Source of the DNA: a virus
Virus record (IMG/VR): IMGVR_UViG_3300044703_000149
Span: 1 to 20,724 of that record
Direction: 5' to 3' (one strand)
Length of the DNA stretch: 20,724 bases
This document shows, piece after piece, positions 4,845 to 16,722 of the stretch. Below the pieces are notes generated by a model. The model was not told where the DNA came from, made no database searches, and saw nothing but the letters and a program-made list of their open reading frames with translations. How positions within the stretch are numbered: position 1 is the first letter of the stretch; each line of letters begins with the position of its first letter. The position numbers were made by a program, and so were the translations under genes.

Positions 4845-4871
4845 TTGCCACCCATGTCGGATGGTGGCGCT
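4845..4871 (+). promoter_or_regulatory. TTGCCACCC late element, copy A (portal)
   Basis: TTGCCACCC at 4845-4853 is followed after 6 nt by GATGGT (4860-4865) and after 6 more nt by GTG 4872. The spacing equals that of copies B, C and D; only the -10-like box is weaker here. An ATG at 4854 lies inside the element in the same frame. Confidence 0.55.
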
Positions 4872-6119
4872 GTGACCGTTGCGCCGCCCCTCGTCGAGAG
4901 GGGCAATGTCGGCATCTTCTCGCCGGGGACGTGGTGGACATCCTTGGACCACGAGGAGACGCCGGAGCTCCGGTGGCCCCTGTCGGTGTGGGTGTTCGAC
5001 CGGATGCGCCGCACCGACTCGCAGGTGGCGTCCGTGCTTCGGGCTGTGACCCTGCCGATCCGTCGCACTGGCTGGCGGGTCGACCCGAATGGGGCGCGCC
5101 CCGAGGTGGCGCAGCAGATCGCCGAGGACCTCGGGCTGCCGTTGGCGAGCGACACGGGCGACGTACCCCCGACGGGGCGAGCGAAAGACCGGTTCTCGTG
5201 GCACCAGCACCTTGAGTGGGCACTGCTGATGCTCCCGTTCGGGTTCATGTTCTTCGAGCAGGTCGTGCGAGTCGACGGCGGCGGGATGGTGCGGCTGCGC
5301 AAGCTGGGGCCGAGGATGCCCCGGACGATCGTGGGCATCGACGTCGCTGACGACGGCGGGCTGGTGTCGGTCACCCAGGCTGCGGGCGCCAAGAGCGTGG
5401 TGATCCCGGTAGACAGGCTCGTCGCCTACGTCCACCAGCGGGAGGGCGGCAACTGGCTGGGGTCGAGCATCCTCCGTCCTGCCTACAAGTTCTGGATCCT
5501 GAAGGACCGACTGCTGCGGGTCCAGGCCCAGACGATCGAGCGGAACGGGATGGGCGTCCCCCTGTACGAGGGGGCTGAGGGCGAGGAGGACTTGACCGCC
5601 GGCCTGTCGATAGCGCAGCGGTGGCGGGCGGGTGACAACTCGGGGGCGGCGATCCCGAACACAGCCAAGCTCACGCTGAAGGGGGTGGACGGGCACATCC
5701 TCCCGGACGCCGATCCCGTGATCCGCTACTACGACGAGCAGATCGCCAGGGCGGTCCTCGCTCACTTCCTCAACCTGGGGACCCAGACCGGGTCGTGGGC
5801 GCTGGGCACGACGTTCGCCGACTTTTTCACATTGTCGCTGGAGGCGTTGGCCGACCAGATCGCCGATGTCGCCACCCAGCATGTCGTCGAGGACCTCGTC
5901 GACTGGAACTGGGGGCCCGACGAGCCGGCGCCGCGGATCATCCACGACGAGATCGGCGCCAAGAACGAGGCCCTCGTCGCGGCGATCAAGATGCTGGTCG
6001 ACGCCGGCGTCATCATCCCCGATCGCATCACCGAGGAGTTCTCCCGCGCGCTGCTTGGCCTGCCGGCCAAGGGGCTACCGTCGCCGACGCCCCAGCAGGC
6101 TCCGGCGGGAGGCGGGTGA
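4872..6119 (+). CDS. Portal protein
   Basis: This protein of about 415 residues should form the dodecameric ring at the capsid vertex through which DNA passes. Recognisable stretches are RTDSQVASVLRAVTLPIRR near the N-terminus, the FSWHQHLEWALLMLPFGFMFFE segment, GGNWLGSSILRPAYKFW, and a C-terminal helical stem with LGTQTGSWALGTTFADFF. This pattern fits actinophage and DUF935-like portals. Start choice: GTG 4872 places the upstream TTGCCACCC element at the same distance as in three other genes. ATG 4854 and TTG 4845 are in-frame alternatives that would add 6 or 9 residues. No good Shine-Dalgarno supports any of them. The C-terminal tail is Pro/Gly-rich. It follows terminase by 34 nt. Confidence 0.88.
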   Translation: MTVAPPLVERGNVGIFSPGTWWTSLDHEETPELRWPLSVWVFDRMRRTDSQVASVLRAVTLPIRRTGWRVDPNGARPEVAQQIAEDLGLPLASDTGDVPPTGRAKDRFSWHQHLEWALLMLPFGFMFFEQVVRVDGGGMVRLRKLGPRMPRTIVGIDVADDGGLVSVTQAAGAKSVVIPVDRLVAYVHQREGGNWLGSSILRPAYKFWILKDRLLRVQAQTIERNGMGVPLYEGAEGEEDLTAGLSIAQRWRAGDNSGAAIPNTAKLTLKGVDGHILPDADPVIRYYDEQIARAVLAHFLNLGTQTGSWALGTTFADFFTLSLEALADQIADVATQHVVEDLVDWNWGPDEPAPRIIHDEIGAKNEALVAAIKMLVDAGVIIPDRITEEFSRALLGLPAKGLPSPTPQQAPAGGG

Positions 6120-6124
6120 GCAGA

Positions 6125-6151
6125 TTGCCACCCGGCCCTGACACTGCCCGC
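6125..6151 (+). promoter_or_regulatory. TTGCCACCC late element, copy B (protease)
   Basis: TTGCCACCC (6125-6133), 6 nt, GACACT (6140-6145), 6 nt, then ATG 6152. The same arrangement occurs before three other late genes. GACACT sits where a -10 box of a leaderless transcript would lie, but the distance from TTGCCA to it is 9 nt, not the 17 nt of a normal sigma70 promoter. Confidence 0.6.
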
Positions 6152-6172
6152 ATGACCGAGGCGACGGTGTGA
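6152..6172 (+). CDS. Possible six-codon leader peptide before the protease
   Basis: The ATG placed exactly at the expected leaderless position of element B opens a six-residue frame (MTEATV). Its TGA (6170-6172) overlaps the GTG of the protease (6169-6171) as GTGA. It may deliver ribosomes to the protease start, which itself has no Shine-Dalgarno. It is also possible that this ATG is not used. Confidence 0.3.
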   Translation: MTEATV

Positions 6173-7368
6173 ATCCGTTCATCTCGAACCCGATGGCGTA
6201 CCACCGAGAGCCGTTGCGCGCCGAGGCACCGGTGCCGAAGCCCGGCGCCCAAGGTGTGGCCACCATCCGCCTGTACGACCCCATCGACTCGTGGGGCGGC
6301 CCATGGGGGGTCTCGGCCAAGGAGTTCGTCGGTGTGCTCGACGAGCTTGGCGACGACACCGCCGAGATCCAACTGCGGGTCAACAGCCCCGGTGGGGAGG
6401 TGTGGGAAGGGCTCGCGATCCTCAACGCACTGCGGGCCCACCCGGCCAAGGTGACCGCCATCGTCGAAGGGGTCGCGGCCTCGGCTGCGTCGTTCATCGC
6501 CGCCGGCTGCGACGAGCTTGAGATGGCCCCCAACTCCGAATTGTTCGTCCACCGGGCGTGGGGCCTGGTGATCGGCAACGCCGAGGACATGGCGAAGATG
6601 GCCGCCGACCTCGATCACGAGGACCGCAACCTCGCCAGCATCTACGCCGCCAAGGCGGGCGGGACGGTCGAGGGCTGGCTGGCGGTCATGTCGGCGGACA
6701 CCGCCTACTCGGCGCAGGAGGCGGTCGACGCCGGCCTCGCCGACCAGGTCGGCCCGACGGCGGTCGACGAGAAGGCGAAGAACCGGTTCGACCTGAAGAT
6801 CTTCAACGCTGGCGGCCGGTGGGCACCAGCGGCATCCGTCTCGGCACCCCCGCCGAGCCCACGCCCCGCTCCGGGGCAGAAGGGAGCGTCCGGCATGGAC
6901 CTCACCGCGATCCGGGCCCGTCTTGGGCTCCCGGACGACACCAGCGACGACGAGACCATCCAGGCGCTGCACGACGCGGCCACCTACGCGGCCGCCGAAC
7001 GCGACGCCCTGAAGGCCCCTCGGCCGCCAGAGCCGCTGCTGGACGGGGTGGTCGCCATCTCGGCCGAGCAGCTCGAGCAACTGAAGGCCGACGCTCAGGC
7101 TGGTCGCGACGCCCGCGCCGAGCAACTGAGGGCGCACCGCGAGGGCCTCGTCGCAGCAGCCGTGCAGGACGGGCGCATCGCCCCGGCGGAGAAGGCCGCA
7201 TGGCTCGACAAGCTCGCCACGGGAACCGGCGCCGAGCAGGTCCTCGCCGCATTGAAGCCAGGCCTGGTCCCGGTCGACGGCGTCGGCAGCAGCGGGAACG
7301 CCGACCTCGAGACAGACGACGACCGGCTGTACTCGGCGCTGTTCGGAGGGGAGAGGGCGAATGCCTGA
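6169..7368 (+). CDS. ClpP-like (S14) prohead protease fused to scaffold-like domain
   Basis: This is a 399-residue protein. Residues about 30-200 are a ClpP-type serine protease: VNSPGG (71-76), GVAASAAS with probable nucleophile S105, NSELFVHRAW with H128, and DTAYSAQEAVDAGLAD with D177, in the order and spacing of the Ser-His-Asp triad of ClpP. Such enzymes mature the prohead by removing scaffold. A Pro-rich linker (about 222-240) leads to a helical, charged C-terminal domain (243-399) of the sort that scaffolds capsid assembly. The architecture parallels protease-scaffold fusions such as lambda C/Nu3. GTG 6169 is the upstream start; ATG 6193 is another in-frame choice. It overlaps the decoration gene by 8 nt. 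Confidence 0.87.
   Translation: MNPFISNPMAYHREPLRAEAPVPKPGAQGVATIRLYDPIDSWGGPWGVSAKEFVGVLDELGDDTAEIQLRVNSPGGEVWEGLAILNALRAHPAKVTAIVEGVAASAASFIAAGCDELEMAPNSELFVHRAWGLVIGNAEDMAKMAADLDHEDRNLASIYAAKAGGTVEGWLAVMSADTAYSAQEAVDAGLADQVGPTAVDEKAKNRFDLKIFNAGGRWAPAASVSAPPPSPRPAPGQKGASGMDLTAIRARLGLPDDTSDDETIQALHDAATYAAAERDALKAPRPPEPLLDGVVAISAEQLEQLKADAQAGRDARAEQLRAHREGLVAAAVQDGRIAPAEKAAWLDKLATGTGAEQVLAALKPGLVPVDGVGSSGNADLETDDDRLYSALFGGERANA
6895..7368 (+). CDS. Nested scaffolding protein (internal start in protease gene)
   Basis: An internal in-frame ATG at 6895 is preceded by AGGGAG (6881-6886) at an 8-nt spacing, a better ribosome site than that of the full-length gene. It falls exactly after the Pro-rich linker, so translation there would yield the free 157-residue C-terminal domain, starting MDLTAIRARLGLPDD. 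This domain is highly charged and helical (EQLEQLKADAQAGRDARAEQLRA in two halves). By analogy with lambda Nu3, the shorter product would be the bulk scaffold and the longer one the minor protease. No separate scaffold gene exists between portal and capsid, which supports the idea. Confidence 0.55.
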   Translation: MDLTAIRARLGLPDDTSDDETIQALHDAATYAAAERDALKAPRPPEPLLDGVVAISAEQLEQLKADAQAGRDARAEQLRAHREGLVAAAVQDGRIAPAEKAAWLDKLATGTGAEQVLAALKPGLVPVDGVGSSGNADLETDDDRLYSALFGGERANA

Positions 7369-7756
7369 TTACGTTCCGCATTGGGCTGACGGGCCGTTCA
7401 CCCGCACGGCGTCGGCGGCGATCACCGGCGGGCAGGTCCTCGTGGTCTCAGGGGTCGGCACCGCTGCCCCATCCGGCGGCGCGTCCTTGGCCGTCGTCGG
7501 TGTCGCAGCGTTCGACGCCGCCAGCGGCGACTCGGTGACGGTCTTGCCGCTCACCAGGGAGACGATCCACCGCCTCACCGCCTCCGGCACCGTCACCGCT
7601 GGAGACCAGGTCATCTCCGCCGCTGGCGGGAAGGTGGCAGCGCTGGCAGCCGCGGCGGGCGCGGCTGCATCCGACATCAACGCGGCCCGCCAGGTCATCG
7701 GGGTGGCCCACACGACCGCGACCGACGGCAATCTCGTCGACGTCCAGGGGAGGTAG
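7361..7756 (+). CDS. Capsid decoration / head-stabilising protein (DUF2190-like)
   Basis: This small 131-residue, Ala/Gly/Val/Thr-rich beta protein lies immediately before the major capsid gene. The pattern ITGGQVLVVSG ... GVAAFDAASGDSVTVLPL ... TASGTVTAGDQVISAAGGKV ... QVIGVAHTTATDGNLVDVQGR is that of DUF2190-type capsid stabilisation proteins, which bind the outside of the shell after expansion. GGAGGGGAGAGGG upstream of ATG 7361 is a strong ribosome-binding region. The gene overlaps the protease stop by 8 nt and ends 3 nt before the capsid start, so the three are co-translated. Confidence 0.75.
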   Translation: MPDYVPHWADGPFTRTASAAITGGQVLVVSGVGTAAPSGGASLAVVGVAAFDAASGDSVTVLPLTRETIHRLTASGTVTAGDQVISAAGGKVAALAAAAGAAASDINAARQVIGVAHTTATDGNLVDVQGR

Positions 7757-7759
7757 CAG

Positions 7760-8683
7760 ATGCCCACCATCTACCCGCCGGCTCCGCCGACGCTCACTGG
7801 CGACGTCGAGTCGATCAACCGGTTCTTGGCCAACCCGACACTGGTCAGTCGCCGGTTGCGCACCATCGCCGAGCAGCGGTACATCGCCGACCGGCTCCTC
7901 ACCGGCCGGTTCCAGCTGTCCGGCGGCGCCATCCTGTACGAGACCGGCGAGTCGATCTACGCCGATCAGTCGCCCGAGGCAGTCGCCCCCGGCTCCGGGT
8001 ACCCGCGGACCACCGTCGGGACCGGGGTGGCGTCGATGGCCCACTCGGTCAAGTGGGGCGAGGACGCCCCCATCACCGACGAGTCGATCAAGCGCCGGCT
8101 GATGGACCCGGTGGCCCGGGCGATGGTCAAGCTGATCAACTCCAACGTGAGGACCATCGACAGCATCGCCATCTCCGCTATCTCCTCGGCGGTGACGAAC
8201 ACGGCCGCCGCGTCCGCCGCGTGGTCGGGGGCGACCGCGAAGCAGATCCTCGACGACGTGCTACAGGCCAAGGCGCAGATCCTCGCCCTCAACCAGGGTT
8301 ACGACCCGGACGTGGTGGCCCTCGACGACTCGCACTGGGCGTACGCGCTGTCGGCGTTCGTGAACGCTGGCTGGCTGCCGCGAGAGGCGCTGACGGACAA
8401 CCCGGCGCTGACCGGCACGTTCCCGGTGATCGGCGGGATGACGTTCTTGCCGACCCCGAACGTGCCAGCCGCGTCGACCGTGCTCGTCCTCGACTCCACG
8501 ATGCTCGGCGGCATGGCGGACGAGCAGCTCGGCGGGCCTGGGTATGCCTCGGCCGGCCCGCCAGGCGTGGAGGGCAAGTCGATCCGCGACGACGACAACG
8601 ACCAATGGAGGGTGCGCTGTCGCCGAGTCACCGTGCCCGTCGTCCTCGAGCCGGTGTCGGCCCGCAAGATCACCGGCGCATAA
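7760..8683 (+). CDS. Major capsid protein (HK97 fold)
   Basis: This 307-residue shell protein is assigned from position after protease, scaffold and decoration gene and from recognisable features of actinophage capsid proteins. These are an N-terminal helical arm (INRFLANPTLVSRRLRTIAEQRYIADRLLTG), an E-loop-like segment (ILYETGESIYADQSPE), a long helix around DESIKRRLMDPVARAMVKLINSNV, and a C-terminal beta segment with DDDNDQWRVRCRRVTVPVVLEPVSARKITG. GGGGAGG lies just upstream of ATG 7760. No large propeptide is evident, consistent with a separate scaffold. Confidence 0.88.
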   Translation: MPTIYPPAPPTLTGDVESINRFLANPTLVSRRLRTIAEQRYIADRLLTGRFQLSGGAILYETGESIYADQSPEAVAPGSGYPRTTVGTGVASMAHSVKWGEDAPITDESIKRRLMDPVARAMVKLINSNVRTIDSIAISAISSAVTNTAAASAAWSGATAKQILDDVLQAKAQILALNQGYDPDVVALDDSHWAYALSAFVNAGWLPREALTDNPALTGTFPVIGGMTFLPTPNVPAASTVLVLDSTMLGGMADEQLGGPGYASAGPPGVEGKSIRDDDNDQWRVRCRRVTVPVVLEPVSARKITGA

Positions 8684-8697
8684 GGAGGCGCACTGTC

Positions 8698-8985
8698 ATG
8701 GCACATGTGGCTACGGCCCCCCTCGTCATCGCCAAGAACGACGAGGGCGGCGACGTGTACGTCTATCAGGGCGGCGTGCTGCCCCCCGACCAGGACGAGG
8801 CATGGCTGGCACAGATGGTCGCAGAGGGCCTCGTCGCCGAAGTCTCCGACGAGGCCGAGGCAGCCACGAGGCCGGCAAGGAACGCGGGCCGCGATCCATG
8901 GCTCGCCTATGCGCTCGCCAACGGCGTCCCAGAGGAGGAGGCCTCGGGCCTGTCCCGCGACGAGCTGCGCGACCTGCTCAGCTGA
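8698..8985 (+). CDS. Hypothetical head protein
   Basis: This 95-residue acidic protein has a strong Shine-Dalgarno (AAGGAGG, 8682-8688) before ATG 8698. The N-terminal half looks like a small beta domain (APLVIAKNDEGGDVYVYQGGVLPPD). The C-terminal half ends in a short helical module (DPWLAYALANGVPEEEASGLSRDELRDLL) resembling the SAP-like or capsid-adjacent helices of actinophage head proteins. Its place between capsid and connector suggests a head-completion or minor decoration role, but no family is identified with confidence. Confidence 0.7.
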   Translation: MAHVATAPLVIAKNDEGGDVYVYQGGVLPPDQDEAWLAQMVAEGLVAEVSDEAEAATRPARNAGRDPWLAYALANGVPEEEASGLSRDELRDLLS

Positions 8986-8995
8986 GGGCTTGATC

Positions 8996-9364
8996 ATGGC
9001 GGTCACGCTCGCCCAAGCCAAGGATCGGCTTGACGTAGTCACCTCGGCGGACGACGCCCAGCTCCAGCTCTACGTGGACGCCGCCAACACCTGGGTGGCT
9101 GCCCGGGTGTCGGATACGGCGCCAGCCCCGGTGGTGCTGGGAACGCTGCTGCTGATCGAGCATTGGTGGGCGTGGCCAGTCGGGGCACCGGCCGACGAGG
9201 CGTCGTTCGGTGGCCGCGGATTCGCCATCCCGAACCGGGTGAAGGAGCTGCTCGACCCATACCTCTCCGCCACCTCGGCGCCGACGTCTGGCTTCCCGGC
9301 CGCCGACTGCTGGTGGCCAGACGCGGTCGTGCCCGTCTCGCCAACGATCGCCTTTGGCCGGTAG
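8996..9364 (+). CDS. Head-tail connector (gp6-like adaptor)
   Basis: This 122-residue protein opens VTLAQAKDRLDVVTSADDAQLQLYVDAANTWVAARV, the typical N-terminal helical pattern of HK97 gp6-like head-tail connectors. A hydrophobic helix (VVLGTLLLIEHWWAWP) and a Pro/Gly-rich, beta-prone tail follow (RGFAIPNRVKELLDPY ... SGFP). Such adaptors form a ring beneath the portal. GAGGG lies upstream of ATG 8996, and the gap to the preceding gene is 10 nt. The last 25 residues, rich in Trp and Pro, may contact the portal. Confidence 0.75.
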   Translation: MAVTLAQAKDRLDVVTSADDAQLQLYVDAANTWVAARVSDTAPAPVVLGTLLLIEHWWAWPVGAPADEASFGGRGFAIPNRVKELLDPYLSATSAPTSGFPAADCWWPDAVVPVSPTIAFGR

Positions 9365-9387
9365 GGCGCACCTGGCCAGGGCGATAG

Positions 9388-9415
9388 TTGCCACCCGCGA
9401 CCGACACTCAGGCGC
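9388..9415 (+). promoter_or_regulatory. TTGCCACCC late element, copy C (tail terminator)
   Basis: TTGCCACCC (9388-9396), 6 nt, GACACT (9403-9408), 7 nt, then GTG 9416. It lies in a 51-nt gap at the head-to-tail gene boundary. Confidence 0.6.
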
Positions 9416-9892
9416 GTGAGCACCTACGCCGACGCCGCTCTTCGCGAGGCTGCCTGGCTCAACGCGGTGGACGTGCTGCCGTCTCTGAGCGTTGCCAATG
9501 GCGGGCCGTTCGAGGTCGTCGAGGCGTTCCCAAGGCATCAAGCCCGGGCCCGCACCGAGCTGTACGTGTTCCGGGAGGGGTTCATGGAGGACCGGGAGTC
9601 GACCGGTCGCAAGCTGTGGACGCATCACCTGGTGGCCGCCATCCGCTGGCCGGTCACCGGCCGCAGCGACAACGCCGTCGCCGCCCTCACCAACCTCGAC
9701 GCGGCGATCGACAGCGTGCTGCAGCGTGTCCGCGGCTTCCCGGCCGACAAGACGCATGGCGGCCGGTGGCTGCAGGCGGGCGAGCATGTCGAGGTGCGCT
9801 ACCCGGACCCGGAGACCGCCCTCGATGGGACGAGCGAAGGGACACAGGTCGTGACGATCCACTACCAGGCCGACGAGGAGGTCTCCGCGTGA
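9416..9892 (+). CDS. Tail terminator / tail completion protein
   Basis: This 158-residue protein lies between the connector and the tube protein. It has the layout of tail terminators: an N-terminal helix (ADAALREAAWLNAVDVLP), a strand region (ARTELYVFREGFMEDRES), a central strand with HHLVAAIRWPVTGRSDNAVAAL, a helix (NLDAAIDSVLQRVRGFP), and final strands (HVEVRYPDPETALDGTSEGTQVVTIHYQADEEV). Terminators cap the growing tail tube and join it to the head. GTG 9416 carries no useful Shine-Dalgarno but sits 28 nt after the start of element C. Its stop overlaps the next GTG (GTGA). The assignment is by fold impression and gene order. Confidence 0.65.
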   Translation: MSTYADAALREAAWLNAVDVLPSLSVANGGPFEVVEAFPRHQARARTELYVFREGFMEDRESTGRKLWTHHLVAAIRWPVTGRSDNAVAALTNLDAAIDSVLQRVRGFPADKTHGGRWLQAGEHVEVRYPDPETALDGTSEGTQVVTIHYQADEEVSA

Positions 9893-10056
9893 AGCTGACC
9901 AACGACAGTCCCGGCGATGTCATCTACCCGGGCATCGTCGATCCCCGCCACGACGACGACCGACTCCTGGTACTGCGGCCGGGCGAGTCGGTCACCGTCG
10001 CTGCGCCAACCGATGAGGCCAAGCAATCGGCGCCGTCGGACAGGAAGAGGGGGTAA
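9889..10056 (+). CDS. Small hypothetical tail-region protein
   Basis: This 55-residue protein starts at a GTG overlapping the previous stop (GTGA) with GAGGAGG 7-8 nt upstream, and ends 3 nt before the tube gene. The sequence VKLTNDSPGDVIYPGIVDPRHDDDRLLVLRPGESVTVAAPT looks like a small beta-rich domain with a basic C-terminus (SDRKRG). Similar short proteins occur before tail tube genes in actinophages, but I cannot name a function. Confidence 0.6.
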   Translation: MKLTNDSPGDVIYPGIVDPRHDDDRLLVLRPGESVTVAAPTDEAKQSAPSDRKRG

Positions 10057-10059
10057 CCG

Positions 10060-11001
10060 ATGGCTGCCACGCCCACCCAACTCGGCCATGTCGGCTGGGC
10101 TAAGGAGGTCACGCCAGGCACCTATGTGGCGCCCACCCTGTTCATCCCCTACACCGCCTCCAATCCCGAGGATGTCCTCGAGTACGTCAACGACGAGTCG
10201 GCCGACGCCAACGGCACCCATGTGCGCGGCGTCTATCAAGGCGTGAAGGATTCGACGTTCGACCTCAGCGGCAATCTCTACCCGGAGGTCATCGGCGCGT
10301 TGATGGTGTGCTTGGGGCTGGCGGACACGGTGACTGGCGCCGGCCCGTACACGCACACGTTCAAGATGCCGGCCGCCTACGTCGTGCCGCCGTCGGCGTC
10401 GCTCACGGACTTCAACACAGTGGAGGCACGCGGCTACCCGGGCCAGAAGCTGAGCGAGCTGAAGGTTGTCACCGACGCCAAGGGGACGGCGAAGTACACG
10501 TCGGCATGGATGGGGTTCCCCTCTGCTGCGCAGTCGACCCCGACGCCCTCGTACCCGGCGACGCCCTCGTCATTGATGGGATGGGAGACGGCTGTCACCG
10601 TCGGCGGCACCGCCTCCGATCGGAACATCAACACCGAGATCACGGTGAAGCGCAATGTGGAGGCGGTGCATTCGCAGAACGGGGTGCAAGCACCCCGCGA
10701 GATGTTGGCCGACGCCATCGAGGCGTCGTTCTCCTGCAAGAGCATCTTCGACGCGAGCACCGACTTCAACCACCTGCTGAGCAACGATCAGCCGGCATTG
10801 CAGGTGGCCATCACCACCCCGGGTGGCGGGTCGAACCCCGTGCTGACGCTGAAGATGTCGAAGGTCAGCGTGTCGAAGGCGAAGGTGGACCGTAGCGGGA
10901 AGTACGCCGTGCTGGACTGGTCGGGTGACGGGATCTACAACGCCACCGACGCCGGGCCCATCCAAGCCACCCTGCTGAACGCTGTCTCCACCCAGTACTG
11001 A
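10060..11001 (+). CDS. Major tail tube protein
   Basis: This 313-residue protein is assigned by position and by the typical opening TQLGHVGWAKEVTPGTYVAPTLFIPYTA of long tail-tube proteins, followed by alternating short strands. Features include LSGNLYPEVIGALMVCLGL, PYTHTFKMP, KLSELKVVTDAKGTAKYTSAWMG and the C-terminal KMSKVSVSKAKVDRSGKYAVLDWSGDGIYNATDAGPIQATLLNA. Hexameric rings of this protein stack to form the tube. GGAAGAGGGG precedes ATG 10060. The stop overlaps the next start by one base (TGATG). Confidence 0.85.
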   Translation: MAATPTQLGHVGWAKEVTPGTYVAPTLFIPYTASNPEDVLEYVNDESADANGTHVRGVYQGVKDSTFDLSGNLYPEVIGALMVCLGLADTVTGAGPYTHTFKMPAAYVVPPSASLTDFNTVEARGYPGQKLSELKVVTDAKGTAKYTSAWMGFPSAAQSTPTPSYPATPSSLMGWETAVTVGGTASDRNINTEITVKRNVEAVHSQNGVQAPREMLADAIEASFSCKSIFDASTDFNHLLSNDQPALQVAITTPGGGSNPVLTLKMSKVSVSKAKVDRSGKYAVLDWSGDGIYNATDAGPIQATLLNAVSTQY

Positions 11002-11351
11002 TGGCACGACACGACCTGCCCGGCGGCAATTGGGTGGAGATCCGGGACACCCCCACCAATGGCGGGCGCCGTCGGGCGTGGGCGGCGTTCTCGCAAGCCC
11101 GACTCGAAGGGCTCATCGGCAACATGCAAGACATGGCCACCATGGACGAGCTCCTAGTCGACATGGTCGACGCCTGGTCGCTGCCCGAGCCCGTCCCTCG
11201 CGAGGAGCGCGAGGTGCTGGACAGCCTCGACCTCGACCTGGCCAACGGCCTGTACGCGCTGCTGCTCCCACTGGTGAAGGAGGGCCGGCTCAATCCCGAC
11301 TTCGGGGTCGACCCGGCGGACGACTCCCCTACGTCGCCCTCGAGCAACTGA
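11001..11351 (+). CDS. Tail assembly chaperone, short form (gpG-like)
   Basis: This 116-residue acidic protein lies between the tube and tape-measure genes. It opens LPGGNWVEIRDTPTNGGRRRAWAAFSQARLEGL. The helical remainder includes MDELLVDMVDAWSLPEPVPREEREVLDSLDLDLANGLYALLLPLV, the conserved 'surface/centre' segment of actinophage chaperones. Such proteins coat the tape measure before tube polymerisation. The frame ends at 11351 in a low-information tail (DDSPTSPSSN), while the -1 frame continues with protein-like sequence, the usual sign of a programmed frameshift. ATG 11001 overlaps the tube stop. Confidence 0.85.
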   Translation: MARHDLPGGNWVEIRDTPTNGGRRRAWAAFSQARLEGLIGNMQDMATMDELLVDMVDAWSLPEPVPREEREVLDSLDLDLANGLYALLLPLVKEGRLNPDFGVDPADDSPTSPSSN

Positions 11352-11545
11352 AGGCCGAGTTGATCGAGGGCGCCGTCGACCCGGCCGGGCCGCTGTTCGA
11401 GCGCCACCGCTGCTACCGGTGGCGGCGCATGTTCGGTGGCACGCAGGCCGACTATGAGGCCGCGGACGCAGTCGACACCGACTGGGACCTCCAGTTCGAG
11501 CGCATCGAGGCCGAGGCGGCCGAGGAGAGGCGACGCCGTGGCTGA
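11001..11545 (+). CDS. Tail assembly chaperone, long form by -1 frameshift (gpGT-like)
   Basis: The -1 frame is open across the end of the short form and encodes YVALEQLKAELIEGAVDPAG ... RHRCYRWRRMFGG ... DWDLQFERIEAEAAEE, typical of the T extension of GT chaperones. No start codon with a ribosome site opens it. The best slip point I see is the CCCCT at 11326-11330 (codons TCC CCT ACG), where a proline tRNA on CCT could re-pair one base back with CCC. This would give a fusion of about 181 residues, with TAC at 11330-11332 as the first -1 codon. A standard X XXY YYZ heptamer is absent, so the exact site is uncertain. Confidence 0.65.
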
Positions 11546-12086
11546 GCAGTCCCGGTTCACGGGCGTCGAGCGGTTCAAGGCCGGACTCGACCGGATCGGC
11601 GGCCAGGTTGAGAAGAGGACCCGCCTGGCAGTCACGGCCGGGGCACGGGCGATGCGGGACCAGGCCCGGAAGAACGCCGACACCGGCCGTCATCGCAAGG
11701 GCGAGCCGACCACGGCGCAGCCGGGAGCCGGGCCGAACCGCGTTACCGGCAACCTGGTCCGCAACATCGCGTCGTCCGCCGCGAAGCCAGCCGGGGATGG
11801 CTGGTGGCGGGCCACCGTGTACGTCCGCCGCAAGGCGTTCTACGGCCGGGTCCTCGAGCAGGACACCGAGGCCAAGACCGTCAACGTCCGCGGCCACGCC
11901 CGCACCGTGCACACCCTGAAGCGGATGCAGCAGGGCCCCGAGCGCGTGCACGGGGTGTCGGCCCACGAGCGGAGGCGCAAGGGGTCGCACGCCTATCCGT
12001 TCTTCGGCCCCGCTGTCGAGTCGGTGGCGACCCGGATCGTCCCTGGTCTGTTCAGGGACGCCTGGGACGAGGGGCACAGGGGGTGA
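11538..12086 (+). CDS. HK97 gp10-like tail completion / neck protein
   Basis: This 182-residue protein has the gp10-family signature. It starts with an N-terminal helix and RAMRDQARKNADTG, then RVTGNLVRNIASSA, a central strand pair (WWRATVYVRRKAFYGRVLEQDT), a basic loop with several His and Arg, and the closing HAYPFFGPAVESVATRI helix. Members act at the head-tail junction or on tail completion. GTG 11538, with GGAGAGG 7 nt upstream, overlaps the long chaperone stop by 8 nt. Position is unusual: most siphophages place this gene before the tube gene, whereas here it lies between the chaperones and the tape measure. Confidence 0.7.
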   Translation: MAEQSRFTGVERFKAGLDRIGGQVEKRTRLAVTAGARAMRDQARKNADTGRHRKGEPTTAQPGAGPNRVTGNLVRNIASSAAKPAGDGWWRATVYVRRKAFYGRVLEQDTEAKTVNVRGHARTVHTLKRMQQGPERVHGVSAHERRRKGSHAYPFFGPAVESVATRIVPGLFRDAWDEGHRG

Positions 12087-12090
12087 GCTC

Positions 12091-14310
12091 ATGCCGTCCC
12101 CGGTGACTGCCGAGCTGCGGGCGGACATCTCCCACTACATGGCCGGAATGACGAAGGCCAAGGGCGAGATGGAGAAGCTGGTCTCCGAGGGCTCGTCGAA
12201 GATGGGGGCGTTGCAGTCGGTCATCTCCTCGAAGATGGCCTCCATGTCCCAGAACGTCGGCACCTCCCTTGCGGGGCTGTCGGGCGGCACGGCGATCGCG
12301 GCCACCGCCGTCGCCGCCGGGATAGGTGCCGTTGCCTCGTTCGTCGAGCATGGCGTGGCGGCCTTCGCAGCGTTGACCGGGCAGGTCACCGCCTACCAGC
12401 GGGTCACCGGGGCCTCCGCTGAGGAGTCGTCGAGGATGGTCGGCGTCATGCGCGACCTCGGGGTCGACGCCGAGACGGGGGCGCGGGCGATGCAGAAGTT
12501 CGGCGCCACCATCGCGATGCAACCGGAGAAGCTGAAGGAGTTCGGCGTCGAGGTCGCCCGCAACAAGAACGGGACGGTCGACATGGTCGGCACGATCGCC
12601 AACCTCGGCGATGTGTACCGACGAACAGGCGATGCCACCCAGCAGGCGGCCATGCGACAGCAACTCATGGGCCGCGGCGGACTGGCCTTGGCGCCGATCC
12701 TGGCCAAGAACCGGGAGGAGCTTGAGGCCTTCGCCAAGGCGGCCCAGGCGCGCGGCGAGATCTTCAGCCAGGACGACCTGCAGAGGGGTGCCGAGCTGCG
12801 CGTCTCCCTGCGGGAGCTGCACGACAGCATGGAGGGCCTGGCCATCGCCGCCGGCAAGACGGTCGTGCCGGCGGTCACCGCGGGTGCCCACGCCATGAGC
12901 TTCGCCGCGGACCACTCTCGCATTCTCGGTGCGGCCCTGGCGAGCCAGATCCCGATTCTCGGGCTGCTGGGGCTGCATCACGGTCACGTCGCCAAGGCAG
13001 CGCACGACCAGGCCGTGCAGGACGAGGAGACGGCGCTGATGGAGAAGCAGGCCGCCGACGCCGAGAAGGAGCACGCACAGCAGCTACGGCAGTTGCAGTC
13101 AGTGGTGGAGTCGTCGATGTCCGCCCACAAGGCGTATGAACAAGCGCAACGGGCGGTCGGCGATGCCGAGCGCACAGTGGGCGACCGCCAGGCTGCGTTG
13201 AACGACCTGCTGCGGAAGGGGGCCGTCGACGCCAAGGCGGTCGAGGCTGCGCAACGCGGACTGGCGTCGGCCAATCGCTCATTGCAGTCGGCGACCGAGG
13301 CCGCCGCCCAGGCGCAGAAGGACCTCGACGCGGTCCTCCATCCGACGGCCCGCTCGTTGACGGACGCCCAACTGGCGGTGAACGACGCCAGCCGCGGAGT
13401 GGAGCGCTCGGCACTGGCAGTCACCGACGCCCAGACTGCCCTGAACGCCGCCTACGCATCCGGCGACCCAGAGCAGGTGCAGAAGGCCCAGTTGGACTTG
13501 GCCGCCGCCCAGGATGAGGTGACAAGGGCGCAGGAGGCGCAGGGCGATGCCAAGAAGGCCTTGGACGACATGCTGCATCCAGAGAGGACCGACGCCGCCG
13601 CCACGGCGCAGCGGCGCCTAAACGATGCCACCATGCAGGTGGCGGACGCCACGCAGGCTCAGCGGGACGCCACCGCTCGACTGGACGAGGCCCAGAAGGG
13701 GGACCCGGAGTTCGCCGACAAGGTGGCGATGGCCCGTCGAGGGGTCGCCGACGCCGAGCGTCAGGTGGCCGACGCCAAGGACCGGGTGTCGGACGCGGCG
13801 CTGAAGATGGCGGAGGCGCAGGCGGCCGAGAACGACGCATTGCAAGCAGCCGGCGGGTTGACGGCCGAGCTGCGCACCAGCCTGGATGCCATCGCCGCCG
13901 CCAACCCTGAGGCGCAGGCGACGGTCTCCACCATCGAGCAGTTGATGGCCCTGGGCGCCACGTCGGCCTCCTCGTCGCCGTTGCCGTCGGCGCATGTCGG
14001 CAATGTGCGGCTGATGGCCTCGGGCGGGATTGTGAGGGCCCGCCCCGGCGGGACCCTCGTGCGGGTCGGCGAGGCTGGCCAGGACGAGGTGGTCATCCCG
14101 TTGCGGCCGGGTGGCGTGCAGGAATCGTCAAAGGTGCCGATGTCGTCATCTCACGGCGGCGGCGGTGACATCAACCTGTACGTCACAGTGCAGGTAGCCG
14201 GGAACGTGTGGGGTGACGTGCAGGCGGCCGCCGCCGACCTCGCCCGCCCGCTTCGCTCTGAGCTGGCTCGCATCGCCCAATCCGTGGGCGGCGCAGGCAA
14301 CCTGTTCTGA
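12091..14310 (+). CDS. Tape measure protein
   Basis: This 739-residue protein sets tail length. The N-terminal part is helical with a strongly hydrophobic stretch (GGTAIAATAVAAGIGAVASF, around residues 63-82) and a second near 285-300 (IPILGLLGL). Such segments are thought to enter the host membrane during DNA ejection. Residues about 355-585 form long Ala/Gln/Asp-rich coiled coil made of three related units of about 75-80 residues. The C-terminus carries the common SGGIVRARPGGTLVRVGEAGQDEVVIPL motif. At the usual rule of about 0.15 nm per residue, a tail of roughly 110 nm is expected. The start is ATG 12091, with AGGGGGTGAG upstream. Confidence 0.92.
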   Translation: MPSPVTAELRADISHYMAGMTKAKGEMEKLVSEGSSKMGALQSVISSKMASMSQNVGTSLAGLSGGTAIAATAVAAGIGAVASFVEHGVAAFAALTGQVTAYQRVTGASAEESSRMVGVMRDLGVDAETGARAMQKFGATIAMQPEKLKEFGVEVARNKNGTVDMVGTIANLGDVYRRTGDATQQAAMRQQLMGRGGLALAPILAKNREELEAFAKAAQARGEIFSQDDLQRGAELRVSLRELHDSMEGLAIAAGKTVVPAVTAGAHAMSFAADHSRILGAALASQIPILGLLGLHHGHVAKAAHDQAVQDEETALMEKQAADAEKEHAQQLRQLQSVVESSMSAHKAYEQAQRAVGDAERTVGDRQAALNDLLRKGAVDAKAVEAAQRGLASANRSLQSATEAAAQAQKDLDAVLHPTARSLTDAQLAVNDASRGVERSALAVTDAQTALNAAYASGDPEQVQKAQLDLAAAQDEVTRAQEAQGDAKKALDDMLHPERTDAAATAQRRLNDATMQVADATQAQRDATARLDEAQKGDPEFADKVAMARRGVADAERQVADAKDRVSDAALKMAEAQAAENDALQAAGGLTAELRTSLDAIAAANPEAQATVSTIEQLMALGATSASSSPLPSAHVGNVRLMASGGIVRARPGGTLVRVGEAGQDEVVIPLRPGGVQESSKVPMSSSHGGGGDINLYVTVQVAGNVWGDVQAAAADLARPLRSELARIAQSVGGAGNLF
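13153..13845 (+). repeat. Three coiled-coil repeat units within the tape measure gene
   Basis: Units start near residues 355 (AVGDAERTVGD), 429 (AVNDASRGVER) and 509 (RLNDATMQVAD), offset by 74 and 80 residues. Each unit has an AxxDA opening, an xALN or xRLDE turn, a short GAVDAKAV / GDPEQVQ / GDPEFAD spacer and an AQxxLAxAxxxV helix. Units one and two are followed by LHPT (416) and LHPE (495). Confidence 0.75.
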
Positions 14311-14318
14311 GCCGCTTG

Positions 14319-14346
14319 TTGCCACCCGGCGCCCACAGTGACGAGC
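14319..14346 (+). promoter_or_regulatory. TTGCCACCC late element, copy D (tail tip)
   Basis: TTGCCACCC (14319-14327), 6 nt, CACAGT (14334-14339), 7 nt, then ATG 14347. It occupies a 36-nt gap between tape measure and tail-tip genes. Confidence 0.58.
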
Positions 14347-16722
14347 ATGCCTGCCGGTCTCGTCGAGCCACGGAAGGTCTTTCGCATCGCGTTCTCGACG
14401 GACCCCCAGTCGCCCACCCCGAACTACGTGGACGTCACCCAGTGGGTCAGGGACTCCGCCGTCGAGATCGAGTACGGGCGCCAGCACGAACTGGGCGAGA
14501 TCGAGCCAGGCCGGATGACGTTCGAGCTCGACAACTTGGACGGGCGCTTCGACCCGACGAACACCGCTGGGCCCTACTACCCCATCTACCAGTACCGTCG
14601 GTGCCAGTTCCTCGTCGAGTGGCCATGGCTGCCCGGACTCCTGGCCAACCCCGACTTCGCGGCGGGCGCGACCGGCTGGTCGGCCGCGCCCAACACGGCG
14701 ATAGCGCCATCGACGGCGCAGCTCTTCTGGCTGCTGTCCGGCTCGCTCGCCCTCACCGCGGCCGGGCCCGGCGCGGTGGGCGCGGTGAGCTCGACGGCCA
14801 GCATGCCGGCGATCACGCCGGGGCTCGCCTACACCGGGACGGCTCGCCTCCGTGCTGGCTCGACGCTGCGCAGCGCCTCCGTGTCGATCGCCTGGTACAA
14901 CGCGGCAAAGGCGCTGCTCTCGACCAGCGCCGGCGTGGCGGTGGCGGAGCCGGCGGCCGACTGGGCGCGGCCCACGGTCACCGCCGCCGCGCCGGCCGGC
15001 GCGGCGTTCGCACAGCTCCAGGTGTCGGTGGCGGGCGCGGCGGCCGGTGAGGTGCACTACCTCGCCGCGGCGGTCCTGGCACAGGGGGTCGACGTCGGGG
15101 TGCAGGCCCAGTTCACCGGCTTCATCGACGAGTTCCCGACGGAGTGGCCCTCGCCGCAGCAGGCATGGTCCAAGGTCAAGGCGGTCGACGGGCTCGACCT
15201 CCTCAACCGGAAGTACCTGACGAGCCTGCGATACGAGCAGGCCATCCTGGCCGACGGTCCAAGGGCGTACTACCGCCTCGGCGAGGGCCCGCAATCCCTG
15301 CGGGCCCTCGATGCCTCGGCGAACCACTTTGACGGGACGTACATGGGGTCGCCGACCCTCGCTGCGCCGGGCGCGCTGCCCGCTGACATCAACACCGCCA
15401 TGCAGGTGGCGGGAAACGGCATGGTCGACATCCCCCCGGCCGCCGCTGTCACCGGTGCTGGCGCGTGGAGTTACGAGCTCTGGTTTGAGTCCAGCCAGCA
15501 CGTGGGCGACGGCCTCTTCGACCTCCGGGGCGCGCCGCCGGGCATCGGGGCCTCGCAGTTGCGACTGGAGGGCGGCTTAAGCGGCACGACCTTCTCCGTG
15601 GACCAGTACCCCGGGGCCACGTACACCGTCATCAACTACACCGCCGGTGCGAGCCTCTGGGACGGCAAGTGGCATCACATCGTCTGGACCCGCGCGGCGG
15701 ACGGGAAGACTCACAGGCTGTACTTGGACGGGGCCCTGGTGGGCACCGGGGCCACCGCCGCCGCGGTGAGCGTGGGCCCGTTCATCGCATGCCGGATAGC
15801 CGGGAATCGCGACACTGGCTTCGAATTCTCCGGGTCGATCGACGAGTTTGCCATCTATCCGGTCGAGCTCAGCGCGGCGCAGGTCCTCGCCCACTACAAC
15901 GCCGGCCTCGGCCCTGGCCTCAACCAGACCACTGGGCAGCGCGTGGGGACCCTGGCGGATGTGGCGGGGTGGTCAGCCACCGACCGGGCCATCGATGCCG
16001 GCCGCACGACGCTGCCGGGGGTCACCTCCTCCCTCGCCACGACGTTCGCCCTCGCCGCGATGAAGGACGTCGAGCGATCGGAGGCTGGGCTGCTGTTCGT
16101 CGACCCGGCTGGGCTGCTGACGTTCTTCGCCCGGGACCGGCTGATGAAGCCCCCGTACACGACGTCGCTCGGCGTCTTCGTAGACTCGGCGCCGGCGTCA
16201 CCAGCTGAGATGCCCTACCAGAGGGGCGGGCTCGTCCGGCCCTTCGACACCTCGGACATCCGCAATGAGGTCGTGGTCACCCCGATCGGCGGGGGCAGTG
16301 CCAGCCAGGTCGCCACCGACAGCGCGAGCGTGACGCGCTACGGAGGTGTTCCCCGCTCCCTGGCCGTGGCCACGCTGGTCGCCAACGCCAGCGAGAACTG
16401 GGACCGCGCGAACTACGAGCTCAACCGGCGCAAGGACGGGCAGCCTCGGGTGCGGTCGCTGCGCGTCAGGCCCATGTCGGACCCGGCCAACATGTTCCTG
16501 CAAGTCCTCCAGCGGCGGCTGTGGGACCGCGTCACCGCCGTGCGCAAGACCCCGCCCGGTGGCGGGCCAGCGTGGAGCCAGGATGGCGTCATCGAGGGCG
16601 GGCACCACTCCATTCGCCCAGGGCTCTGGGAGACGACGTGGGCGCTCTCGCCGGCCGAGACGCAGTCGTACTGGCTGTGGGGCACGAGCCGCTGGGGCGT
16701 CGACACCCGCTTCGCCTACTGA
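14347..16722 (+). CDS. Minor tail / tail-tip protein with carbohydrate-binding and LamG domains
   Basis: This is a 791-residue protein. The N-terminus (about 1-95) has VTQWVRDSAVEIEYGRQHELGEIEPGRMTFELDN in pieces, the start of distal-tail-like proteins of actinophages. Residues about 98-245 (NPDFAAGATGWSA onward, Ala/Ser/Thr-rich) look like a jelly-roll carbohydrate-binding module. After a conserved bridge (FTGFIDEFPTEW), a LamG/concanavalin-like domain spans about 298-515 (AYYRLGE, WSYELWFES, WHHIVWTRA, RLYLDGALVG, GSIDEFAIYPVELSAAQV). The remaining region to 791 returns to the tail-tip fold and has QRRLWDRVTAVR and SYWLWGTSRWGVDTRF. It probably forms the baseplate and binds host surface glycans. 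ATG 14347 was preferred to GTG 14338 because of the spacing of element D. Confidence 0.82.
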   Translation: MPAGLVEPRKVFRIAFSTDPQSPTPNYVDVTQWVRDSAVEIEYGRQHELGEIEPGRMTFELDNLDGRFDPTNTAGPYYPIYQYRRCQFLVEWPWLPGLLANPDFAAGATGWSAAPNTAIAPSTAQLFWLLSGSLALTAAGPGAVGAVSSTASMPAITPGLAYTGTARLRAGSTLRSASVSIAWYNAAKALLSTSAGVAVAEPAADWARPTVTAAAPAGAAFAQLQVSVAGAAAGEVHYLAAAVLAQGVDVGVQAQFTGFIDEFPTEWPSPQQAWSKVKAVDGLDLLNRKYLTSLRYEQAILADGPRAYYRLGEGPQSLRALDASANHFDGTYMGSPTLAAPGALPADINTAMQVAGNGMVDIPPAAAVTGAGAWSYELWFESSQHVGDGLFDLRGAPPGIGASQLRLEGGLSGTTFSVDQYPGATYTVINYTAGASLWDGKWHHIVWTRAADGKTHRLYLDGALVGTGATAAAVSVGPFIACRIAGNRDTGFEFSGSIDEFAIYPVELSAAQVLAHYNAGLGPGLNQTTGQRVGTLADVAGWSATDRAIDAGRTTLPGVTSSLATTFALAAMKDVERSEAGLLFVDPAGLLTFFARDRLMKPPYTTSLGVFVDSAPASPAEMPYQRGGLVRPFDTSDIRNEVVVTPIGGGSASQVATDSASVTRYGGVPRSLAVATLVANASENWDRANYELNRRKDGQPRVRSLRVRPMSDPANMFLQVLQRRLWDRVTAVRKTPPGGGPAWSQDGVIEGGHHSIRPGLWETTWALSPAETQSYWLWGTSRWGVDTRFAY

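Follow-up and report, generated by a model that had tools for sequence, protein, structure and literature searches.

A four-copy 9-mer in the late-gene gaps of a phage contig: candidate leaderless late promoters with an unusual upstream box

What function could be served by a short sequence that recurs, in a single orientation and at a nearly constant distance from an RTG codon, in the gaps between the late genes of a phage? The question is raised by IMGVR_UViG_3300044703_000149, a virus record of 20,724 bases with a GC content of 71%, which is an incomplete contig and was analysed over its whole length (hereafter the window). Its gene content comprises a DnaB-like helicase, an HNH protein, terminase, portal, head maturation protease, scaffold, major head protein, head-tail adaptor, tail tube, tape measure, a large tail protein and a holin. 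The relatives of its capsid are found in Gordonia phages and those of its portal in phages or prophages of actinobacteria (Sinomonas, Arthrobacter, Micromonospora and others), and its host is probably a high-GC actinobacterium. Gene models are mechanical open reading frames chosen with the aid of homology, and the borders of the gaps are approximate. Overlapping frames occupy 11001-12086, between the tail-tube and tape-measure genes, the expected place of a frameshifted tail assembly chaperone. Near the left end, an AT-richer stretch at 220-250 carries the inverted repeat ACTGTAGA-TCAGCGG-TCTACAGT, which by eye has an operator-like look.

The four-copy repeat is real. It had been reported in a sequence-only reading of the window, and its four exact copies are found as described, with no other copy on either strand:

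4845-4853, plus strand: TTGCCACCC copy 1, terminase/portal gap
6125-6133, plus strand: TTGCCACCC copy 2, portal/protease gap
9388-9396, plus strand: TTGCCACCC copy 3, gap between the head-tail adaptor gene and the next gene
14319-14327, plus strand: TTGCCACCC copy 4, tape measure/tail-protein gap

Markov models of order 0 to 3 predict 0.06-0.11 copies on the plus strand, against the four observed. Each of them falls between late genes, and among the 172 9-mers present in at least four copies TTGCCACCC alone is confined wholly to gaps, the runner-up having two of four copies there. Simulations point in the same direction, as any 9-mer common to four gaps arose in 4 of 5000 runs with simulated gaps, and a 9-mer common to four upstream regions at a fixed distance (±1) from the start arose in none of 3000 runs (maximum, two regions). 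A weight-matrix scan for further copies scored the four sites at 29-34 bits and the next match, within a gene at 2589, at 13 bits. The boundaries had also been named broadly correctly: the sites separate terminase from portal, portal from protease, the head-tail adaptor from an unnamed neck-tail gene, and the tape measure from a large Laminin_G-containing tail protein.

From TTGCCACCC to the RTG downstream, the distance is 27, 27, 28 and 28 nt at the four sites. The reading frames concerned are the following:

4872-6119, plus strand: portal gene, from GTG 4872 (alternative in-frame ATG 4854); phrog_113, E 6.5e-94
6152-6172, plus strand: 6-codon ORF ATG ACC GAG GCG ACG GTG TGA, read from the sequence
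6169-7368, plus strand: head maturation protease gene, probably starting at GTG 6169, which is preceded by a weak GAGG; phrog_2976, E 1.3e-109
9416-9892, plus strand: 158-aa gene between the adaptor and tail-tube genes, no family assigned, no Shine-Dalgarno (SD) sequence
14347-16722, plus strand: gene for a large Laminin_G_3-domain tail protein, starting at ATG, with GTG 14338 as a further in-frame codon; it lacks an SD sequence

The earlier reading had taken these RTGs for start codons of the genes. The distances themselves hold, but ATG 6152 is not the start of the protease. It opens the peptide MTEATV, and its stop codon TGA (6170-6172) overlaps the protease start GTG 6169 as GTGA. The portal start, too, could on sequence grounds be the in-frame ATG 4854, directly after motif copy 1, with an N-terminus MSD... 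that resembles those of relatives L032 and L029. The genes at 9416 and 14347 have no homologues to fix their starts. A good SD sequence had been said to be missing from all four starts; this is correct at 9416, 14347 and 6152 (-1.9, -2.3 and -1.7 kcal/mol, compared with -11 to -14 at genes with a clear SD) and fails at GTG 4872, which has a GGTGG-type match of -10.2 kcal/mol, and at GTG 6169, where the SD-like GAGG is weak (-6.3 kcal/mol). An SD sequence is absent in at least two of the four genes and is strong in most other late genes.

A constant distance to RTG codons, at least two of them lacking an SD, would be expected of an element acting in the mRNA, in which a factor bound to UUGCCACCC helps or represses ribosome loading at four genes of a polycistronic late message, and start-associated sequences do exist in cluster K mycobacteriophages (PMC11373665). 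This alternative, already raised in the sequence-only reading, fits less well. In the case of the protease, the gene does not start at the RTG that keeps the fixed distance; the spacing is instead to the likely start of the transcript, and this speaks for an element of transcription rather than of translation. RNA folding at the four sites is in no case notably better than that of shuffled sequences (z from -1.06 to +0.69), the conserved columns outside the 9-mer fit a -10 box, and the cluster K elements lie 3-9 bp from the start codon, compared with about 18 nt here (PMC11373665). An mRNA element is therefore regarded as unlikely.

The columns in question belong to a second box downstream of each copy:

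4860-4865, plus strand: -10-like box GATGGT, site 1; counted from GTG 4872 as the start, its A is at -11 and its T at -7
6140-6145, plus strand: -10-like box GACACT, site 2, from the alignment
9403-9408, plus strand: -10-like box GACACT, site 3, from the alignment
14334-14339, plus strand: -10-like box CACAGT, site 4, from the alignment

The consensus GAcacT first proposed for this box was overstated, and its invariant part is nAnnnT. When the sites are aligned on the 9-mer, over 40 nt upstream and 33 nt downstream of its first base, only a C (offset 13), an A (offset 16) and a T (offset 20) are invariant outside the 9-mer, which makes 12 invariant columns in all and none upstream of it. Two invariant A/T columns within the 18 nt after the motif were obtained in about 1 of 8000 simulations (P about 1e-4). 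A(-11) and T(-7) are the two most important bases of the -10 box in sigma-70-family promoters, and these are the positions of the invariant A and T when the RTG is taken as +1. By strict count from the RTG, they stand at -12 and -8 at the 28-nt sites, where a spacer of 7 nt, or a start shifted one base upstream, would be in the normal range of -10-to-start distances. The RTG lies 6-7 nt after the -10-like box, a spacing that would suit leaderless transcripts, with an ambiguous start in the case of the portal, and the proposed start bases (G, A, G and A) are all purines.

The same alignment bears on the origin of the sites, which coincide with module boundaries and might be remnants left at module joints by recent duplication or recombination, devoid of regulatory function. 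However, sequence divergence is seen in both flanks and in the six bases separating the boxes but has left the 9-mer, the A and the T untouched, which suggests constraint and makes such remnants highly improbable.

It had been stated that these are not standard sigma70 promoters, and the data agree. There is no -35 (TTGACA-like) element at 16-18 nt, because the alignment shows no conserved column upstream of the 9-mer, whereas nAnnnT is present at all four sites. A search for canonical sigma-70 promoters between 3000 and 17000 gave 0 matches. The hexamer TTGCCA agrees with TTGACA at five of six positions, yet it lies 9 nt from the -10-like box; its use as a canonical -35 with a -10 box at 16-19 nt was considered and rejected, since no A/T pattern is seen there.

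The best explanation is that the four sites are phage-specific leaderless late promoters, in which a factor would bind at -27 to -19, upstream of a -10 box, and this reading is considered probable. Of the -10 box, just the two key bases would remain (A at -11, T at -7), and the place of the -35 box would be taken by the 9-bp box TTGCCACCC, lying at roughly -27 to -19. A phage-encoded DNA-binding activator or RNA-polymerase-modifying factor would recognise the 9-bp box and recruit the host RNA polymerase to the -10. With the RTG 27/28 nt downstream of the motif as transcription start, the portal, the 9416 gene and the 14347 tail protein would each be expressed from a leaderless mRNA. In the case of the protease, the product would be a leaderless 6-codon ORF coupled via GTGA to the protease start, so that the failure of 6152 as a gene start makes sense. 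Precedents exist in mycobacteria, where leaderless translation requires an ATG or GTG at the 5' end and needs nothing more, and where leaderless small ORFs are coupled by RTGA overlaps (PMC4633059). Against the promoter reading stand the small sample (four sites in one incomplete contig), the absence of a T at -12 from the -10-like boxes, one of which is merely GATGGT, and the portal, where a start at 4872 would bypass ATG 4854 and where GTG 4872 has an SD-like match. No candidate factor for the 9-bp box was identified within the 20.7-kb window. In its most complete form, the proposal is that a phage factor or sigma reads the 9-bp box in the promoter spacer, rather than a box at -35, and thereby creates leaderless late promoters with a double role, in transcription start and in ribosome entry, in one case via a 6-codon leader ORF; this larger scheme is offered as a tentative possibility.

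Host sigma factors can also drive leaderless transcripts, and the -10-like A/T pair would suit promoters of an alternative host sigma factor instead of a phage-specific one. Nevertheless, the full pattern is at control level in bacterial genomes, with 6 matches versus 5 for the reversed control in 297 genomes of one actinobacterial class (which may not be that of the host) and 1 versus 1 in 14 genomes carrying relatives of the portal. The control-level result in the 297 genomes points to a phage factor, and a host sigma factor is judged very unlikely.

Conservation in close relatives, which had been suggested as a check, was not observed, since none of the 207 related loci scanned, the closest relative found among them, has the motif with its geometry. 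This closest relative, L145, shares 69% identity in TerL and 76% in the portal; it has no motif at the terminase/portal or portal/protease boundary and has a purine-rich, SD-like sequence at both, the portal start being preceded by ccggggag and the protease start by caggagg. A loose version of the motif (at most two mismatches, with the A/T and RTG) occurs 12 times in the 207 related loci (2.9 Mb), versus 2-17 times for six shuffled 9-mers. The relatives were also scanned for other repeated 9-mers confined to gaps, and nothing comparable was seen. An alignment-based terminase scan gave no relative closer than those already found; peptide-pattern scans can miss relatives, and a scan with a single terminase failed to return L145. 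Searches of the viral contig collection with the tail protein and the tail tube gave no relatives.

In the same collection, the exact motif has 14 matches, all outside the related phages found, and in no case does an RTG follow the second box at 6-7 nt. None of the other contigs holds a set of motifs. Matches to the full-geometry pattern in 39 viral contigs were judged to be due to chance; there is one match per contig, at GC contents of 0.35-0.60, and most of the RTGs open no gene or lie inside a longer frame. Repeats in L004 (9521, 11724 and 12449) and L005 (3619 and 3641) begin with TTGCCACC and have GACACT or GACATT about 6-7 nt later; as far as seen they are not at start codons, and they are probably unrelated. 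A literature search for the 9-mer gave only unrelated papers among the matches listed. As far as these collections show, the element appears to be specific to the lineage of the window phage. The leaderless promoter dependent on an activator or otherwise unusual, as first suggested, is the best-supported reading through its A/T pair at -11/-7, its GTGA-coupled mini-ORF and the lack of a -35 box, and draws no support from conservation in relatives.

The promoters of actinobacterial phages have been poorly characterised, and in mycobacteriophages some are unlike those of SigA (PMC11373665, PMC4351075). A box at a non-standard position combined with leaderless starts of virion genes would provide a testable sequence and geometry, and the box would be a handle for finding the factor of the late-gene switch. 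At two of the same boundaries, L145 appears from its sequence to use SD-led polycistronic expression; if the promoter reading is true, the phage would have shifted from this mode to separate leaderless promoters.

Cluster A stoperators are not known to keep a fixed distance to start codons. They are asymmetric, occur in one orientation and lie in short intergenic gaps, as do the window sites (PMC9283540), which could accordingly be one-sided repressor sites that halt late transcription in a prophage. However, the 27/28-nt distance and the A/T columns are unexpected for such sites, and the window has only four copies of a 9-mer, all in late genes, while cluster A phages have more than twenty copies of a 13-mer (PMC9283540). 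Stoperator-like sites are considered distinctly unlikely. No gene for an immunity repressor, the protein that binds stoperators and stops elongation, was identified in the window contig.

The start-associated sequences of cluster K mycobacteriophages are likewise short, conserved, phage-specific and located upstream of several genes (PMC11373665). They differ in being 13 bp long and 3-9 bp from the start, whereas the 9-bp box of the window ends about 18-19 nt from the RTG; their extended form, which contains a putative promoter, has SigA-like -35 and -10 elements and a 17-bp inverted repeat, neither of which is found at the window sites (PMC11373665). Leaderless promoters of cluster O mycobacteriophages are similar in that transcription is predicted to begin with the start codon's first base, but they have SigA-like -35 and -10 elements (PMC4351075), while the window sites have an unrelated 9-bp box and no -35. 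T4 middle promoters, which a phage activator reads together with a partner that remodels sigma, also combine a -10 box with a short box replacing the -35 (PMC6755090). Their MotA box is centred near -30 (PMC6755090), whereas that of the window has its centre near -23 and is separated from the -10 by 6 bp. Being about 7 bp closer, the window box does not make these sites members of the T4 middle-promoter class; its sequence is unrelated, the host is different and no counterpart of MotA/AsiA was identified in the 20.7-kb contig. The MotA box has a similar length of about 9 bp.
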